From: an uncultured Pelagibacteraceae bacterium
GTDB taxonomy: Bacteria; Pseudomonadota; Alphaproteobacteria; Pelagibacterales; Pelagibacteraceae
NCBI GenBank assembly: GCA_902569735.1
Contig: CACFVE010000008.1
Span: 1-42,247 of the forward strand
Direction: 5' to 3'
DNA length: 42,247 bases
The notes under the pieces: model-generated
Database searches by the model: none
Told to the model about the DNA's origin: nothing
Seen by the model: only the letters and a program-made list of their open reading frames with translations
Part shown: positions 12,876-33,903 of the stretch, piece by piece
How positions within the stretch are numbered: position 1 is the first letter of the stretch
Layout of the letters: every line of letters starts with the position of its first letter
Translations under genes and position numbers: made by a program

Positions 12876-12876
12876 C

Positions 12877-12956
12877 TTTTCCACAGGCAAGCAAAAAAGT
12901 GTGTAACTTTTAACTTTAATTGTAGTTCACTCAAACTATTATCCTCATGTGGAAAA
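12877..12956 (+). promoter_or_regulatory. Inverted pair of DnaA-box-like 9-mers flanking the dnaB start
   Basis: TTTTCCACA (12877-12885) just after the rplI stop and its exact reverse complement TGTGGAAAA (12948-12956) across the dnaB GTG start. Each fits the relaxed DnaA-box consensus TTWTNCACA. As RNA they could instead pair as a 9-bp stem that hides the start codon. Both readings are inference. Confidence 0.35.
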
Positions 12957-14370
12957 AATCAAATTAAAAGACAATAATTTAGATAAGAAACAACCTTCAA
13001 ATATAGAAGCAGAACAAGCTTTACTAGGATCTATTTTAGTCAATAATGATATAATTGATGAAGTAGCAAATATTGTTAATCCTACAAGTTTTTACGACCC
13101 CGCTCATACTAAAATTTATGAAGTAATTGAAACTTTAAATAATAAAGGAATGATAGCGAACCCTATTACTTTAAAAAACTTCTTTGAAAAAGATAACATG
13201 TTAGATGAAGTCGGGGGAACAGAGTATTTAGTTAAATTGACAAGATTTTCAGGATCGACAAAACAAGCTACGGATTATGCAAAAGTAATTCATGAAATGT
13301 ACCTAAGAAGAGAATTGGTTTTAATTTCTGATAATTTATCTTCAGAAACATTGAATGCAAAAGAACAAAGTGCAGAAAAAATAATTGAAAATACAGAAAA
13401 ATCTCTATTTGATTTGGCTGAAAGAGGAAGTTTTTCTCAATCTTTTTTAAAATTTAATCAAGCTTTAGACCAAACTATAGAGATGGCCACTTTAGCCATG
13501 AAAAATGATAAAGGAATTGTAGGTGTGCCTACCGGTTTGACAGATCTGGATGAAAAACTAGGTGGACTACACAAATCAGATTTAATAATTTTGGCTGGCA
13601 GACCGTCAATGGGTAAAACAGCTTTAGCTACAAATATTGCTTATAACGCAGCCCAAAATATTTTAAATGGAGAAGAAAAATCTTCTGTGGCTTTCTTTTC
13701 TCTAGAAATGTCTTCAGAACAATTATCAACTAGAATTTTATCAGAACAAGCTAGAATCAGATCTGACGATATTAGGAGAGGAAAGGTTACGGAAGAAGAG
13801 ATTAATCGTTATATCGAAACTTCAAGAAACATTTATAATCTCCCTCTTTTTATTGATGAAACACCTGCAATAACAATTGCAACATTAAGTAATAGAGCCA
13901 GAAGAATTAAAAGATTGTTTGGTGTTAGTTTAATAGTTGTGGATTACATACAATTAATGAGATCCAATTCAAATAAAAATGAAGGAAGAGTTCAAGAAAT
14001 TTCTGAAATAACTCAAGGTTTAAAGGCTTTGGCTAAAGAACTTGGAGTGCCTATTCTAGCTTTGTCTCAACTATCTAGAGCTGTTGAACAAAGAGATGAT
14101 AAAATACCTCAACTAGCTGATTTAAGAGAATCTGGTTCAATTGAACAAGATGCTGATGTAGTAATGTTTGTTTATAGAGAAGCTTATTATTTGGAGAGAA
14201 AACAACCTAAACTTGGTTCAATAGAACACGCTGAGTGGCAGTCTAAAATGAACGATGTTAATGGTCTTGCTGACATTATACTAGGTAAACAAAGACACGG
14301 GCCAACAGGTACAATTAAAGTTGAGTTTGAAGGAATTTATACAAAATTCAAAGATTTAAGCAAAAATTAG
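12949..14370 (+). CDS. dnaB: Replicative DNA helicase DnaB
   Basis: Hexameric 5'-3' helicase that unwinds DNA at the replication fork and recruits primase. The 473 residues show the N-terminal DnaB domain (PSNIEAEQALLGSILVNND), Walker A GRPSMGKTALA (about 217-227), Walker B LIVVDYIQLM and the QLSRAVEQR and DLRESGSIEQDADVV motifs. The start is GTG. An ATG two bases upstream is in another frame and soon reaches a stop. No strong Shine-Dalgarno sequence is seen. No intein is present. Confidence 0.96.
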   Translation: MEKIKLKDNNLDKKQPSNIEAEQALLGSILVNNDIIDEVANIVNPTSFYDPAHTKIYEVIETLNNKGMIANPITLKNFFEKDNMLDEVGGTEYLVKLTRFSGSTKQATDYAKVIHEMYLRRELVLISDNLSSETLNAKEQSAEKIIENTEKSLFDLAERGSFSQSFLKFNQALDQTIEMATLAMKNDKGIVGVPTGLTDLDEKLGGLHKSDLIILAGRPSMGKTALATNIAYNAAQNILNGEEKSSVAFFSLEMSSEQLSTRILSEQARIRSDDIRRGKVTEEEINRYIETSRNIYNLPLFIDETPAITIATLSNRARRIKRLFGVSLIVVDYIQLMRSNSNKNEGRVQEISEITQGLKALAKELGVPILALSQLSRAVEQRDDKIPQLADLRESGSIEQDADVVMFVYREAYYLERKQPKLGSIEHAEWQSKMNDVNGLADIILGKQRHGPTGTIKVEFEGIYTKFKDLSKN

Positions 14371-17445: not shown

Positions 17446-18883
17446 ATCAGATAAACTAAGAGAAGAGTGTGGTATATTTGGTATATCCAATCATGAAGAT
17501 GCTTCGGCTTTGGTGGCTTTGGGTCTTCATGCCTTACAACATAGAGGCCAAGAAGGATGTGGAATAGTATCTTACGATGGAAAAAACTACCATTCAGAAA
17601 AAAGACAGGGTTTGGTTGGAGATAATTTTACTAAGAGCAATGTTATAAATAAACTGCCTGGTAAATTTGCCATAGGTCATAATCGATATTCTACAACTGG
17701 CGAAACTTCTTTAAGAAACATACAGCCATTTTTTGCCGATCTGCATATGGGCGGATTAAGTATTGCGCATAATGGCAACCTAACTAATGCATTAACTTTG
17801 AGAGAGTCCTTGGTCAAGGAAGGAGCCATTTTTAGAACTACGAGTGATACTGAAACAATTGTTCAACTAATTGCAAAATCAAAAAGAGATAAAATAGTAG
17901 ATAAGTTAATAGATGCACTGTTTCAAATACAAGGAGGTTATTCCTTAGTGATAATGACAAATAAAAAATTGATAGGAGTAAGAGACCCTTTTGGTATAAG
18001 ACCTTTAGTAGTAGGCAAATTAAAAGATTCATATATTCTAGCTTCAGAAACTTGTGCTTTAGACATTGTAGGTGCAAAATTTGTTAGAGAAGTAGAAAAT
18101 GGCGAAATTATTGTAATTGAGAATAATGAAATAAGTAACATTAAACCCTTTCCTAAACAAAAGGCAAGACCATGTATATTTGAATATATTTATTTTGCTA
18201 GACCTGACAGTATTATTCAAGGAAAGTGTGCTTATGAATATCGGAAAAATTTTGGTTTACAGTTAGCAAAAGAAACAGATATAGAAGCTGATATTGTTGT
18301 TCCAGTACCAGACTCAGGTGTCCCAGCGGCTTTAGGTTATGCGGAATACTCGAAAAAAAAATTTGAACTAGGATTAATACGAAATCATTATGTCGGTAGA
18401 ACATTTATTGAACCTTCTCAAAATATTAGAAGTTTAGGTGTTAAACTGAAATTGAGTCCAACTAAAAGTATTGTAAAAAATAAATCTATAATATTAATAG
18501 ATGACTCTTTAGTGAGAGGAACAACATGCTATAAAATTGTAAAGATGCTTTATGAGTCTGGAGCTAAAGAAGTTCATGTTAGAATTGCATGTCCAGAAAT
18601 AAAATTTCCTGATTTTTATGGGGTAGATATGCCAACTAAAGAAGAGCTGTTAGCTCATCAAAAAACTAATATAGAAATGTGTGAATATATAAAAGCTAAA
18701 TCACTAAAATTTTTAAGTTTAGATGGCCTTTATGAAGCTTTAGAAAAAGGTAAAAGAAATAATTCTTACCCACAATTTAGCGATCATTATTTTACAGGCG
18801 AGTACCCAATCAAGCCTTCTGATAATCTAGGAGAACTAAAAATAACACAATTATCATTATTAAGCGGAAAATCTAATAATTAG
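17432..18883 (+). CDS. purF: Amidophosphoribosyltransferase
   Basis: First committed enzyme of purine synthesis: PRPP and glutamine give phosphoribosylamine. The start is TTG and gives KKFKSDKLREECGIFGI. Cys13 is the catalytic nucleophile and becomes N-terminal after loss of a 12-residue propeptide. The Ntn-type glutaminase domain includes HRGQEG and HNGNL. The phosphoribosyltransferase domain has the PRPP loop IILIDDSLVRGTT (about 352-364). The C-terminal segment reads SDHYFTGEYP, where Fe-S-containing homologues carry a CxxC ligand pair, so the 4Fe-4S cluster is probably absent. It overlaps cvpA upstream, and its stop overlaps the bamB stop on the other strand. Confidence 0.95.
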   Translation: MKKFKSDKLREECGIFGISNHEDASALVALGLHALQHRGQEGCGIVSYDGKNYHSEKRQGLVGDNFTKSNVINKLPGKFAIGHNRYSTTGETSLRNIQPFFADLHMGGLSIAHNGNLTNALTLRESLVKEGAIFRTTSDTETIVQLIAKSKRDKIVDKLIDALFQIQGGYSLVIMTNKKLIGVRDPFGIRPLVVGKLKDSYILASETCALDIVGAKFVREVENGEIIVIENNEISNIKPFPKQKARPCIFEYIYFARPDSIIQGKCAYEYRKNFGLQLAKETDIEADIVVPVPDSGVPAALGYAEYSKKKFELGLIRNHYVGRTFIEPSQNIRSLGVKLKLSPTKSIVKNKSIILIDDSLVRGTTCYKIVKMLYESGAKEVHVRIACPEIKFPDFYGVDMPTKEELLAHQKTNIEMCEYIKAKSLKFLSLDGLYEALEKGKRNNSYPQFSDHYFTGEYPIKPSDNLGELKITQLSLLSGKSNN

Positions 18884-30664: not shown

Positions 30665-31021
30665 TTAGCCTGTTTTCTTCTTTTCGTTATCAACTACTAA
30701 GCAAATTTCTGATTTTGTTAAAAATCTTTCTCCAGTTCCATTATCCAAAGAAAACATTCCACCTATACCCTTAACAGCATCAATAGTGAGATCTGTATGT
30801 TTCCATTTTTCATATTGGTCTCCATTCATATAAAAAGGAACTCCTCCTATTTCACCTAGTTTAACGTCATTATCTCCTAGAGGAAATTCACCTTCTTTAA
30901 AACACATAGGTGCACTACCATCACAACATCCCCCTGACTGGTGAAACATTAATTTTTCACCATATTTTTCTTGAAGTTTGGATAATAAGCTTAAAGCCGA
31001 GTGAGTAGCAGACACTTTCAT
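30665..31021 (-). CDS. DUF779 family protein (aldehyde dehydrogenase partner)
   Basis: A short protein with the DUF779 signature MFHQSGGCCDGSAPMCF, then GGVPFYMNGDQYEKWKHTDLTIDAVKGIGG. Homologues are commonly encoded beside acetaldehyde-type aldehyde dehydrogenases; their function is unknown. The cysteine cluster (CC and MC) could bind metal or be redox active. I chose the ATG at 31021, giving MKVSATHSALSLL, where the family usually begins. An in-frame ATG at 31039 would add six residues but is buried in the stem of a strong hairpin. The gene lies about 50 bp downstream of the aldehyde dehydrogenase, the likely operon partner. Confidence 0.82.
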   Translation of the reverse strand: MKVSATHSALSLLSKLQEKYGEKLMFHQSGGCCDGSAPMCFKEGEFPLGDNDVKLGEIGGVPFYMNGDQYEKWKHTDLTIDAVKGIGGMFSLDNGTGERFLTKSEICLVVDNEKKKTG

Positions 31022-31032
31022 TTTTAATGTAC

Positions 31033-31057
31033 GGCCCATGATTTAGAATCATGGGCC
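31033..31057 (-). repeat. Perfect 10-bp stem-loop between aldehyde dehydrogenase and DUF779 gene
   Basis: GGCCCATGAT (31033-31042), loop of 5, ATCATGGGCC (31048-31057). It is GC-rich compared with its surroundings. On the minus strand it follows the aldehyde dehydrogenase stop by about 15 nt and precedes the DUF779 ATG at 31021. No run of T follows, so it is not a standard terminator. It more likely stabilises or attenuates the mRNA, or controls translation of the second gene. Confidence 0.7.
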
Positions 31058-31072
31058 AGTATATATTATTGT

Positions 31073-32626
31073 TTAAAAGAATCCCAATTTCTTCTCAGCG
31101 TAAGAAACGTGTAAGTTCTTATTTTGTCTATAATGATTAAGCATCATTTTGTGAGTTTCTCTTCCCACTCCAGACTGTTTATAGCCTCCAAATGGTGAGT
31201 GAGCTGGATAAGCGTGATAACAATTTGTCCACACTATTCCGGCTTGTATTCCTCTGCCCATTCTGTGAGCTTTATTACCGTCTCTAGTCCATACTGCTGC
31301 TCCTAAACCATAAAGAGTATCATTAGCAATTTTTAATGCTTCTGCCTCATCTTTAAATTTTATTACAGATACAACAGGTCCGAAGATCTCTTCTTGAGAG
31401 ATTCGCATGTCATTTTTAGCTTCAAAAATAGTCGGTTGAATATAATTTCCTTTTTCCAATCCACTATTAAGTTTAGCAACACTTCCTCCGGTTAGAACTT
31501 TAGCACCCTCTTTTTTACCGAGTTCAAGATAAGATTTAATCTTTTCCATCTGCTCTACAGACGCTTGGGCTCCAATCATTGTTTCCATTTTTAAAGGATT
31601 GTCTTGTTTTACAGCTTTAGTTCTTGCAATAGCTCTCTCCATGAATTTATCATAGATTGACTCTTGAATTAAAGCTCTGCTTGGACAAGTACAAACTTCA
31701 CCTTGGTTAAGATTGAACATAACAAAACCTTCAATACATTTATCAAAAAAGTCATCATCTTTTTCCATGACATCTTCAAAGAAAATGTTTGGAGATTTTC
31801 CACCTAATTCCAATGTAATTGGAATTATGTTTTGTGCAGCGTACTGCATAATCAATCTTCCAGTAGTTGTTTCACCAGTAAAAGCAACTTTTGCAACTCT
31901 TTTAGAAGATGCTAAAGGTTTACCTGCTTCCAATCCAAAACCACTAACAATGTTAACCACCCCTGGAGGTAATAAATCTCCAATAAGTTCCATTAAAACA
32001 TTAATAGACGCTGGTGTTTGTTCAGCTGGTTTTAATACAACACAGTTTCCTGCTGCAAGAGCTGGAGCTAATTTCCATGTTGCCATTAATAAAGGAAAGT
32101 TCCATGGAATAATCTGACCTACAACTCCTAAAGGTTCATGAAAGTTATAAGAGTATTGATTATTGCTTATTTCTGCAATTGATCCTTCCTCTGCTCTTAT
32201 TACTCCGGCAAAGTATCTCCAATGATCAACTACCAAGGGCAAGTCTGCTGCCATACACTCCCTGATAGGCTTTCCATTATCTAAACATTCAGCTGTTGCT
32301 AATAAGTTTAGATTTTTTTCAATAACATCAGCTATTTTATTCAAAATGTTTGATCTAGTAGTGATGTCTGTCTTTCCCCATTCAGAGAAAGCTGCGTGAG
32401 CTGCGTCTAATGCAGCTTCTACGTCTTTTTCGTTCGATCGTGCGACTGAACAGATCTTCTCATTATTTATCGGGCTAACATTATCAAAATATTTGCCTGA
32501 CTTGGGTTCTACAAATTTACCATTTATATAATTGCCGTATTTAGCTTTAAATGGAAATTTTACTTTTAAATGAGAGGTATCTAAGGCAGAAGACACTTTC
32601 GAGCTTTTTGCTTGTTGTGTGCTCAT
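31073..32626 (-). CDS. Aldehyde dehydrogenase (acetaldehyde type, ExaC/AcoD-like)
   Basis: NAD(P)-dependent aldehyde dehydrogenase of 517 residues. It has [32 protein letters not shown] for cofactor binding (seen as PWNFPLL and VLKPAEQTP), FTGETTTGR, the catalytic Glu in [13 protein letters not shown], catalytic Cys in [11 protein letters not shown], and EIFGPVVSV. The GEVCTCPSR context and the linked DUF779 gene fit enzymes oxidising acetaldehyde or other short aldehydes; the substrate is inferred. A strong Shine-Dalgarno sequence fixes the start. A palindrome lies about 90-110 bp upstream, suggesting regulation. Confidence 0.92.
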
Positions 32627-32629
32627 TTT

Positions 32630-32637
32630 CCCTCCTT
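32630..32637 (-). promoter_or_regulatory. Strong ribosome-binding site of the aldehyde dehydrogenase
   Basis: AAGGAGGG on the minus strand, 3 bp before the ATG at 32626. Almost complete anti-16S complementarity; most genes in this window have no such match, so strong translation is expected. Confidence 0.75.
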
Positions 32638-32717
32638 GTTAACGAACACACTATTGAACTAAATATAGATTTAATTGTACACTAATTATTTTACAACCTG
32701 AGGTGTTACATACTAAA

Positions 32718-32738
32718 TATTGATTGAGTCAATCAATA
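32718..32738. promoter_or_regulatory. 21-bp palindrome, candidate operator upstream of aldehyde dehydrogenase
   Basis: TATTGATTGA-G-TCAATCAATA, 10-bp arms perfectly complementary around a central G, in the 173-bp gap between recA and the aldehyde dehydrogenase. The symmetry suggests a dimeric regulator. It is not an FNR box, because the TTGAT and ATCAA half-sites are 7 rather than 4 bp apart. Confidence 0.5.
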
Positions 32739-32754
32739 GTTGTTGTTTCATGGG

Positions 32755-32780
32755 AAACGGGAGAAAGTTTTCTCCCGTTT
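32755..32780 (-). terminator. Intrinsic terminator after recA
   Basis: AAACGGGAGAAA (32755-32766) and TTTCTCCCGTTT (32769-32780) form a 12-bp perfect inverted repeat, 20 bp beyond the recA stop. A and T flank it on both sides, so it could work in either direction. It separates recA from the aldehyde dehydrogenase promoter region. Confidence 0.8.
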
Positions 32781-32799
32781 TAATTTAGATGGCAGAAGA

Positions 32800-33903
32800 T
32801 TATTTATCTTCTTTTTCTTCGCTAATTTTTTCCTTTGATGAAGGGTTTCCTTCTAATTCTTTAGAAATTGCTGCTGCTTCGTCGCGAATAATTTTTTCAA
32901 TTTCTGCAGCAACATTAGGATTTTTTTCTAAGTAGATTTTAGCATTTTCTCTACCTTGACCTATCTTTTCACCTTTATATGCATACCAAGCACCAGATTT
33001 TTCAACTACCCCTGCTTTTGCACCAAGATCAACAAGTTCTCCAACTTTGCTAATACCTTTTCCATACATCAAATCAAACTCAACAACTTTAAACGGTGGA
33101 GCTACTTTGTTTTTAATAACTTTAACTCTAGTTGAGTTTCCAATTATCTGATCTTTTTCTTTAATGGCTCCTATTCTTCTTATGTCCATTCTTACAGACG
33201 AATAGAATTTCAATGCGTTTCCACCAGATGTTGTTTCTGGATTTCCAAACATCACGCCAATTTTCATTCTAATTTGATTTATAAATATAACCATTGTGTT
33301 TGATTTAGAAACCGAACCAGTTAATTTTCTTAGAGCTTGACTCATAAGTCTAGATTGAAGGCCGACATGATGATCTCCCATTTCTCCTTCTAATTCAGCT
33401 TTTGGTGTCAATGCTGCAACAGAATCCACAACTAATACAGAAACAGAACCTGATTTAATTAATGTATCAGTTATTTCTAAAGCTTGTTCTCCTGTGTCCG
33501 GTTGTGAGATTAAAAGTTCTTCTGTTTTTACTCCAAGTTTTTTAGCATAAACAGGATCCATTGCATGTTCAGCATCAACAAAAGCACATATTCCTCCAGC
33601 TTTTTGTGCTTCCGCAACAACTTGCAATGCTAATGTTGTTTTACCAGATGACTCTGGTCCATATATCTCTATAATTCTTCCTTTTGGTAGGCCTCCTATT
33701 CCTAAAGCTAAATCTAAACTTAAAGATCCTGTGGAAATTGCCTCAACATCTAAAGCTTGTTGTTGGCCAAGTCTCATTACTGAGCCTTTTCCAAAATTTT
33801 GGTCTATTTGGCTAATAGCTGCCTCTAAAGACTTCTTTTTTTCCTTTAATTCTTGCTCTTTTTTGTTATCTGTCTTTACAACTTTTAAATTATTTTTAGT
33901 CAT
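32800..33903 (-). CDS. recA: Recombinase RecA
   Basis: DNA strand-exchange protein for recombination and repair, and co-protease for LexA where present. The 367 residues have Walker [10 protein letters not shown] (82-90), the VDAEHAMDP segment, Walker [17 protein letters not shown], the L1/L2 DNA-binding loops including [19 protein letters not shown] (split by the core) and [21 protein letters not shown]. It has a charged, lysine- and glutamate-rich N-terminal extension (about 25 residues) and C-terminal tail. It is a single-gene unit with its own terminator. AAGGAT precedes the ATG. Confidence 0.98.

Follow-up and report, generated by a model that had tools for sequence, protein, structure and literature searches.

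Predicted tandem CAA-N7-TTG operators upstream of an ExaC-like aldehyde dehydrogenase gene of SAR11-type bacteria, with NtrX as candidate regulator

The described binding sites closest to the one reported here are those of NtrX, the response regulator of the NtrY/NtrX two-component system. In the excerpted text of PMC9223101, these sites are given as CAAN3-5TTG in Brucella abortus and CAAN2-5TTG in Sinorhizobium meliloti, and NtrX of the latter species reportedly binds the dnaA promoter. The NtrX site of Rhodobacter sphaeroides is GCAN9TGC according to the extract from PMC7240162, which describes NtrX as an activator of several operons. For SAR11 bacteria, NtrY/NtrX is counted among four two-component systems, and sigma-70 and sigma-32 are named as the only sigma factors (PMC13198564, in excerpt), and a paper citing Smith et al. 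2013 states that their polyamine-metabolism enzymes were not upregulated under nitrogen limitation, a point against the explanation favoured below. Searches of the open-licence PMC literature, judged by titles and the starts of abstracts, showed no report of NtrX binding sites in SAR11. These cells, which rank with the most abundant of the ocean, have very few regulators, and the candidate NtrX regulon described below bears on the sensing of nitrogen shortage in bacteria that do not have the usual PII/NtrC machinery. SAR11 bacteria are not known to have PII or NtrBC. NtrC sites have the form TGCACC-N5-GGTGCA, and glnA is an NtrC target.

The whole stretch of DNA analysed, here called the window, is 42 kb long with 28% G+C, and the assembly to which it belongs (G000) amounts to 829 kb and is 73.7% complete; among named relatives, those nearest to it are Pelagibacteraceae (SAR11). 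On its minus strand lies a gene for an ExaC-like aldehyde dehydrogenase (ALDH) of 517 aa (31073-32626; PF00171; NF050026 at 869 bits, cut-off 900), with recA (32800-33903, minus strand) as the upstream neighbour, a gene for a DUF779 protein (30665-31039, minus strand; PF05610) directly downstream and alaS, named by eye, beyond it. The 173-nt gap between recA and ALDH (32627-32799) holds the 21-bp palindrome that drew attention to this locus. The preliminary description had taken this gap for the longest intergenic region of the window, but when ORFs of at least 70 aa are counted two others exceed it in length, 17446-17746 with 301 nt and 12876-13149 with 274 nt, and it ranks third. A recA terminator had also been placed next to the palindrome, and a hairpin with 12-bp arms does adjoin it 3' of recA (32755-32780, minus strand), terminator-like by eye but absent from the output of the terminator scan of the window. 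Just past this hairpin, the sequence GTTTC-YCAT-GAAA (32740-32754) is kept by most members of an alignment of 40 sequences, one subclade of which has it partly deleted. The ribosome-binding site claimed for the ALDH gene is present before its start as AAGGAGGG (32630-32637, minus strand) and reads AAGGAGG or AAGGGGG in most relatives. In loci L057, L058, L063, L064 and L070, the ALDH frame continues in-frame upstream for about 50-65 lysine-rich codons, giving a total of 565-579 aa; this extension would be an N-terminal tail or, alternatively, a leader peptide.

Conservation in the gap was followed in an alignment of 40 sequences with the same recA-ALDH arrangement, the window's own included, and later in 75 genus sequences representing 67 distinct segments, five of the 75 being loci from named records that possibly repeat other genomes in the set. 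The footprint was read from the main spacing class, which comprises 53 distinct segments from 56 of the 75 sequences (the 19 with other spacing being left out); in these segments the conserved columns read CAACT-nnn-RATTG-A, followed by a variable stretch and then by C-n-AYATnT-n-GT. The unit kept by these segments is 13 bp long, CAA-N7-TTG (CAAYTNNNARTTG), and has a variable centre. Its first copy in the window, operator 1 (CAACTATTGATTG; 32730-32742, minus strand), carries the inverted CAA and TTG half-sites of a dyad and is the sole intergenic match in the window to the profile; C0, A1 and A2 are each found in all 53 segments and A9, T10, T11 and G12 in 53, 52, 52 and 53, as compared with 27, 28 and 23 for the three central bases. 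The second block lies 20 bp on, centre to centre and in the same frame, with conserved columns of which seven are identical in all 53 segments, but this copy is degenerate (CAAYATTTAGTAG), with poor pairing between its dyad halves; in the window it reads CAATATTTAGTAT (operator 2; 32710-32722, minus strand). Both copies are perfect, 16 bp apart, in some relatives such as L190. A longer single motif, ATTGAYTNAATCAAYATTTAGTA, was tried and set aside, having only 3-mismatch matches elsewhere in the genome (four, against one for the backwards control); the stretch was later resolved into the two operators. It is very probable that a conserved tandem operator, as predicted here, lies upstream of the ALDH gene.

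Downstream of operator 1, a putative ALDH promoter begins with the -35-like hexamer TGTACA (32676-32681, minus strand), 55 nt from the operator centre, paired at a distance of 17 nt with the -10-like hexamer TTCAAT (32653-32658, minus strand), which is TTTAAT in most relatives. Across the 75 genus sequences, the best pair of the form T(G/A)(T/G)ACA-N17-T(T/C)(T/C/G)AAT scored either 11.5 or the maximum of 12.5, with N17 as the single spacing tried and the sites chosen by best consensus score. The 40-sequence alignment is gap-free between the two hexamers; the generic promoter scan of the window did not report the pair. Transcription would start near 32646, so that the two operators would be centred near -70 and -90.

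The motif belongs to the ALDH gene. The 3' end of recA was rejected as its owner because the readable genomes without ALDH lack the motif too. Among 21 same-genus genomes without a close ALDH, a recA match was found in five, with a readable downstream region in three (G030, G023 and G060); in all three the motif is absent and the recA hairpin is directly followed by alaS. In genus g7 the ALDH gene has other neighbours, as judged by eye, and the upstream site is still present, a script recovering it in 32 of 34 cases (CAA-N7-TTG in 16 and CAA-N7-TAG in 16), mostly 23-28 nt from the -35; a further site, in L175, is visible by eye and was overlooked by the script. All nine further ALDH loci from named records carry the site. 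In six g7 genomes (G103, G150, G189, G192, G208 and G226) ALDH lies less than 3 kb from glnA; the distance is about 5 kb in G135, and the two genes are far apart in G143.

Other genes share the motif. A pattern combining operator and promoter, searched with 0 mismatches in 25 genomes, gave 10 matches in eight genomes and none when run backwards: six before ALDH, three before a solute-binding protein (PF01547) adjoining glycerol kinase, the kinase being scored for L208 only, and one before an EhuB-like ectoine-type binding protein (160 bits, under the cut-off of 191). The window genome itself had no match to this strict pattern, its ninth operator base being G. The bare motif occurred at 62 sites in four genomes, against 15 for the backwards control; 61 of them could be placed, 49 within ORFs and 12 in intergenic regions by our own ORF calls, and the remaining one is a solute-binding-protein site already found with the combined pattern. 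Two of the 12 intergenic sites, in two genomes, lie before glnA, another lies before dnaA (L302, genome G127) and another before a ccrM-like methyltransferase gene (L269, genome G118), the last two in one genome each and all of these genes being named by eye. A fixed -35/-10 sequence was rejected as the shared feature, with eight matches in five of eight genomes (three ALDH, one EhuB-like, one solute-binding protein and three other).

Since the consensus used to choose the ALDH sites was itself derived from those promoters, only the tests on glnA and on the ammonium transporter genes are independent. Of 32 genomes searched for glnA, 31 matched and 30 loci were analysed, the upstream region being taken from the start of the match. 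CAA-N7-TTG was present in 20 of these 30 regions, against 2.1 expected from shuffles, and the other 10 lack the core; among spacings of 3 to 12, N7 was the commonest (20) and N6 came next (8). A profile built only from ALDH sites reached a shuffle p below 0.05 in 17 of the 30. In upstream regions of other genes the core occurred in 25 of 210 and a profile score of at least 14 in 11 of 210, the latter compared with 14 of 30 for glnA; these control counts are inflated because the set contains the ammonium transporter as well as some regions that belong to glnA neighbours too. The window genome's own glnA site, CAAGTATTGATTG, is borderline (p=0.055). Between the CAA-N7-TTG site and the start of glnA, many of the loci L324-L353 show, by eye, a conserved ATGCATAG-type block. 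In G126, in stretches chosen by locus number, CAATCAAAGGTTG lies upstream of one of two ammonium transporter genes, near a glutamine-synthetase-type gene, and no such site was found before the other transporter gene or before ntrY. The site is thus shared by nitrogen-assimilation genes (glnA, 20 of 30; ammonium transporter, one of two in one genome), and this shared motif suggests that a nitrogen-response regulator switches the ALDH gene. The preliminary description had proposed an operator for a regulator of aldehyde or alcohol metabolism; a conserved element of the regulator-binding type does lie upstream of ALDH, but the palindrome is not that operator, and a regulator specific to aldehydes or alcohols is unlikely because the same motif precedes glnA, an ammonium transporter and two solute-binding proteins.

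Candidate regulators were sought as Fis-type helix-turn-helix matches in 12 genomes. NtrX was found in nine of them, a RegA-like regulator, named by eye, in 11 and a GAF-HTH protein related to DhaR in one; the window's own assembly gave no such match. Across the family, NtrX occurs in 284 of 377 genomes; when the good genomes alone are counted, the figure is 123 of 140. It was found neither in the window's assembly, at 73.7% completeness, nor in G136 (95% complete), though the ALDH gene there has both operators. Among the 20 NtrX-less genomes listed, beyond which there are 73 more, 17 have an ALDH match and G136 alone is at least 90% complete; assembly gaps may explain the ALDH genomes without NtrX, and since all of these but G136 are less than 90% complete, the co-occurrence of NtrX and ALDH neither supports nor excludes NtrX. 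The SAR11 NtrX of G171 scored 533 bits against NF051870 (cut-off 600). That of G127 aligns over its length to the solved chain 5m7n, which we take to be Brucella NtrX; the helix-turn-helix of the two is almost identical, with GMERSALHRKLK common to both, and neither has the GAFTGA loop shown by chain 4l4u in the same output. From this helix match and the form of the published NtrX sites, NtrX is the best candidate for binding the CAA-N7-TTG sites, a proposal held with moderate confidence, and the site could work like an NtrX site. It is not filed as a proven one because its spacing differs from the published CAAN2-5TTG. A DhaR/AcoR-like GAF-HTH protein was rejected as a universal regulator, as it occurs in 17 of 377 genomes, all of genus g7 and none of the window's genus. 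Such a protein, with GAF and Fis-type HTH domains and no AAA+ domain by Pfam scan, is encoded at L221:490-1572 and at 16 other loci; the L221 gene adjoins, by eye, one for a zinc-type alcohol dehydrogenase and has CAACTTATGGTTG just upstream of its start.

It is also possible, if less probable, that the tandem operators are real and serve another binder, such as RegA, a regulator of the LysR or CRP/FNR type or one of unknown kind. The RegA-like protein with its Fis-type helix-turn-helix, named by eye and present in 11 of the 12 genomes searched, would be available for this role, positions near -70 and -90 fit several activator classes, and G136 has the operators without a detected NtrX. The TTGA...TCAA at the junction of the two operators further resembles FNR half-sites. 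However, the box of LysR-type regulators is a T-N11-A dyad and that of FNR/CRP is TTGAT-N4-ATCAA, geometries unlike those of the single-copy g7 sites: the motif has C-N11-G, and TTGA-N5-TCAA occurs only at the junction and is absent from the single-copy sites. Moreover, glnA and the ammonium transporter as targets point to a nitrogen regulator.

It is improbable that the conservation stems only from a further promoter or from a site for the architectural proteins IHF or HU. The stretch AATCAAYATTTAG is one mismatch away from the IHF consensus and TTGACT is similar to a -35, but inspection by eye shows no conserved -10 to match it at a distance of 16-18 nt downstream, and the dyad recurs in g7 and at glnA without the IHF-like half.

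The palindrome itself, TATTGATTGAGTCAATCAATA, is exact at 32718-32738 with all 10 pairs complementary, and its core, TTGATTGANTCAATCAA, occurs at a single place in the genome. Its perfect arms would favour reading it as the operator of a dedicated aldehyde or alcohol regulator, and the earlier judgement that such a match is unlikely by chance holds for the gap considered alone, where a comparable palindrome arose in nine of 20,000 shuffles, but not for the window as a whole, where 25% of 60 dinucleotide shuffles contain one (arms of at least 10, spacer 1). Perfect palindromes with arms of at least 10 and spacers of 0-10 number six in the window, against a shuffle mean of 2.5. Conservation upstream of orthologous ALDH genes, the lack of which had been named beforehand as evidence against the proposal, was not observed: the palindrome is perfect only in the window, in one of 67 distinct orthologous segments, one other segment has nine pairs, and the mean over the segments is 5.54. 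When 50 distinct segments from the main spacing class were compared, pairing between the arms was 0.546, against 0.534 for permuted columns, a value reached in 90 of 1000 permutations; this near-identity and the rarity of perfect arms indicate that nothing holds the arms together, either as a DNA dyad or as an RNA stem. In addition, nothing but CAA-N7-T(T/A)G is kept at the ALDH promoters of g7, and the acetoin/dihydroxyacetone-type regulators (17 of 377 genomes) are missing from the window's genus, so that the palindrome is very unlikely to be an operator in its own right. It is a chance symmetry of one genome bridging two neighbouring operator copies: it arises because the right half of operator 1 (ATTGA) faces the left half of operator 2 (TCAAT), and the bases flanking this junction would have happened to extend the symmetry to ten pairs in the window genome. 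The case carries a methodological lesson, since the palindrome that stood out most within a single genome proved to be the gap between the true sites. An RNA hairpin, as attenuator or second terminator, is hardly credible, even with arms able to pair and the recA hairpin adjoining, given that the arms lack covariation and the compensatory changes expected of a structured RNA, that no U run follows, that Rfam gave no match in the window at gathering score and locally only sub-threshold ones, and that the palindrome is probably not transcribed, as it lies between the recA hairpin and the putative ALDH promoter, upstream of the latter.

A hairpin of a different kind lies between ALDH and DUF779 (GGCCCATGATTCTAAATCATGGGCC; 31033-31057, minus strand), just before or over the DUF779 start, where no obvious ribosome-binding site is present. 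It is far more conserved than the palindrome, with arms of 10-11 bp in 29 of 30 loci and of 7 bp in the remaining one, L015. The exact arms occur in 41 of 358 loci, and diverged loci, some of them of g7, keep the hairpin with paired changes (L017, L063, L067 and L068). Its predicted fold has -20.7 kcal/mol (z -5.0) and matches no Rfam family. This hairpin is a candidate cis-acting RNA.

Taken together, the favoured explanation is one in which two tandem 13-bp operators in the CAA-N7-TTG frame, spaced 20 bp, or two helical turns, from centre to centre and lying some 70 and 90 bp upstream of the putative start, would serve a sigma-70-type promoter of the ALDH-DUF779 genes. A dimeric response regulator of the Fis-type helix-turn-helix class, most likely NtrX, would bind there and adjust ALDH-DUF779 transcription together with that of glnA and an ammonium transporter, probably as an activator since the operators lie upstream of the promoter. 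The conservation of the motif, its geometry, its linkage to ALDH and its recurrence at glnA and one amt gene are direct observations; the promoter and its start, the identity of the binding protein, the activation and the nitrogen signal are what we infer from them, and the explanation as a whole seems somewhat more probable than otherwise. In the wider sense, there is perhaps an even chance that SAR11-type bacteria use NtrX as a regulator of sigma-70 promoters through CAA-N7-TTG operators, forming a small regulon as a cis-encoded nitrogen response. Besides glnA and an ammonium transporter, it would take in solute-binding proteins of the ectoine type and others as well as the ExaC-like ALDH-DUF779 pair, and some of the promoters would carry tandem operators two helical turns apart. 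A concrete 13-bp operator and the match to the recognition helix of a solved regulator make this regulon testable by binding assay.

Among the known systems, the NtrX sites of B. abortus and S. meliloti, as excerpted from PMC9223101, resemble those described here in their CAA...TTG inverted halves and in the occurrence of two such motifs, there in the ntrY promoter probe. They differ in the footprinted spacing, N2-5 there and N7 here at ALDH and glnA, and in their targets, which are ntrY and cell-cycle genes there and glnA, an ammonium transporter and ALDH here. The geometry of the R. sphaeroides site, CA-N9-TG, is identical to that of CAA-N7-TTG, although the outer G...C is not kept here and the targets given in the extract of PMC7240162, cell-envelope and division operons, are unlike those found here. 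On the side of the enzyme, the locus resembles that of the ExaC-type acetaldehyde dehydrogenase with a DUF779 partner, as ALDH lies next to DUF779 and NF050026 is the best NCBIfam model, but its 869 bits fall under the curated cut-off of 900. NtrC sites share the CA-N9-TG geometry and glnA as a target with the sites described here; in contrast to NtrC systems, these genomes were found to encode NtrX as their regulator of the NtrC family, and the ALDH promoter looks sigma-70-like.
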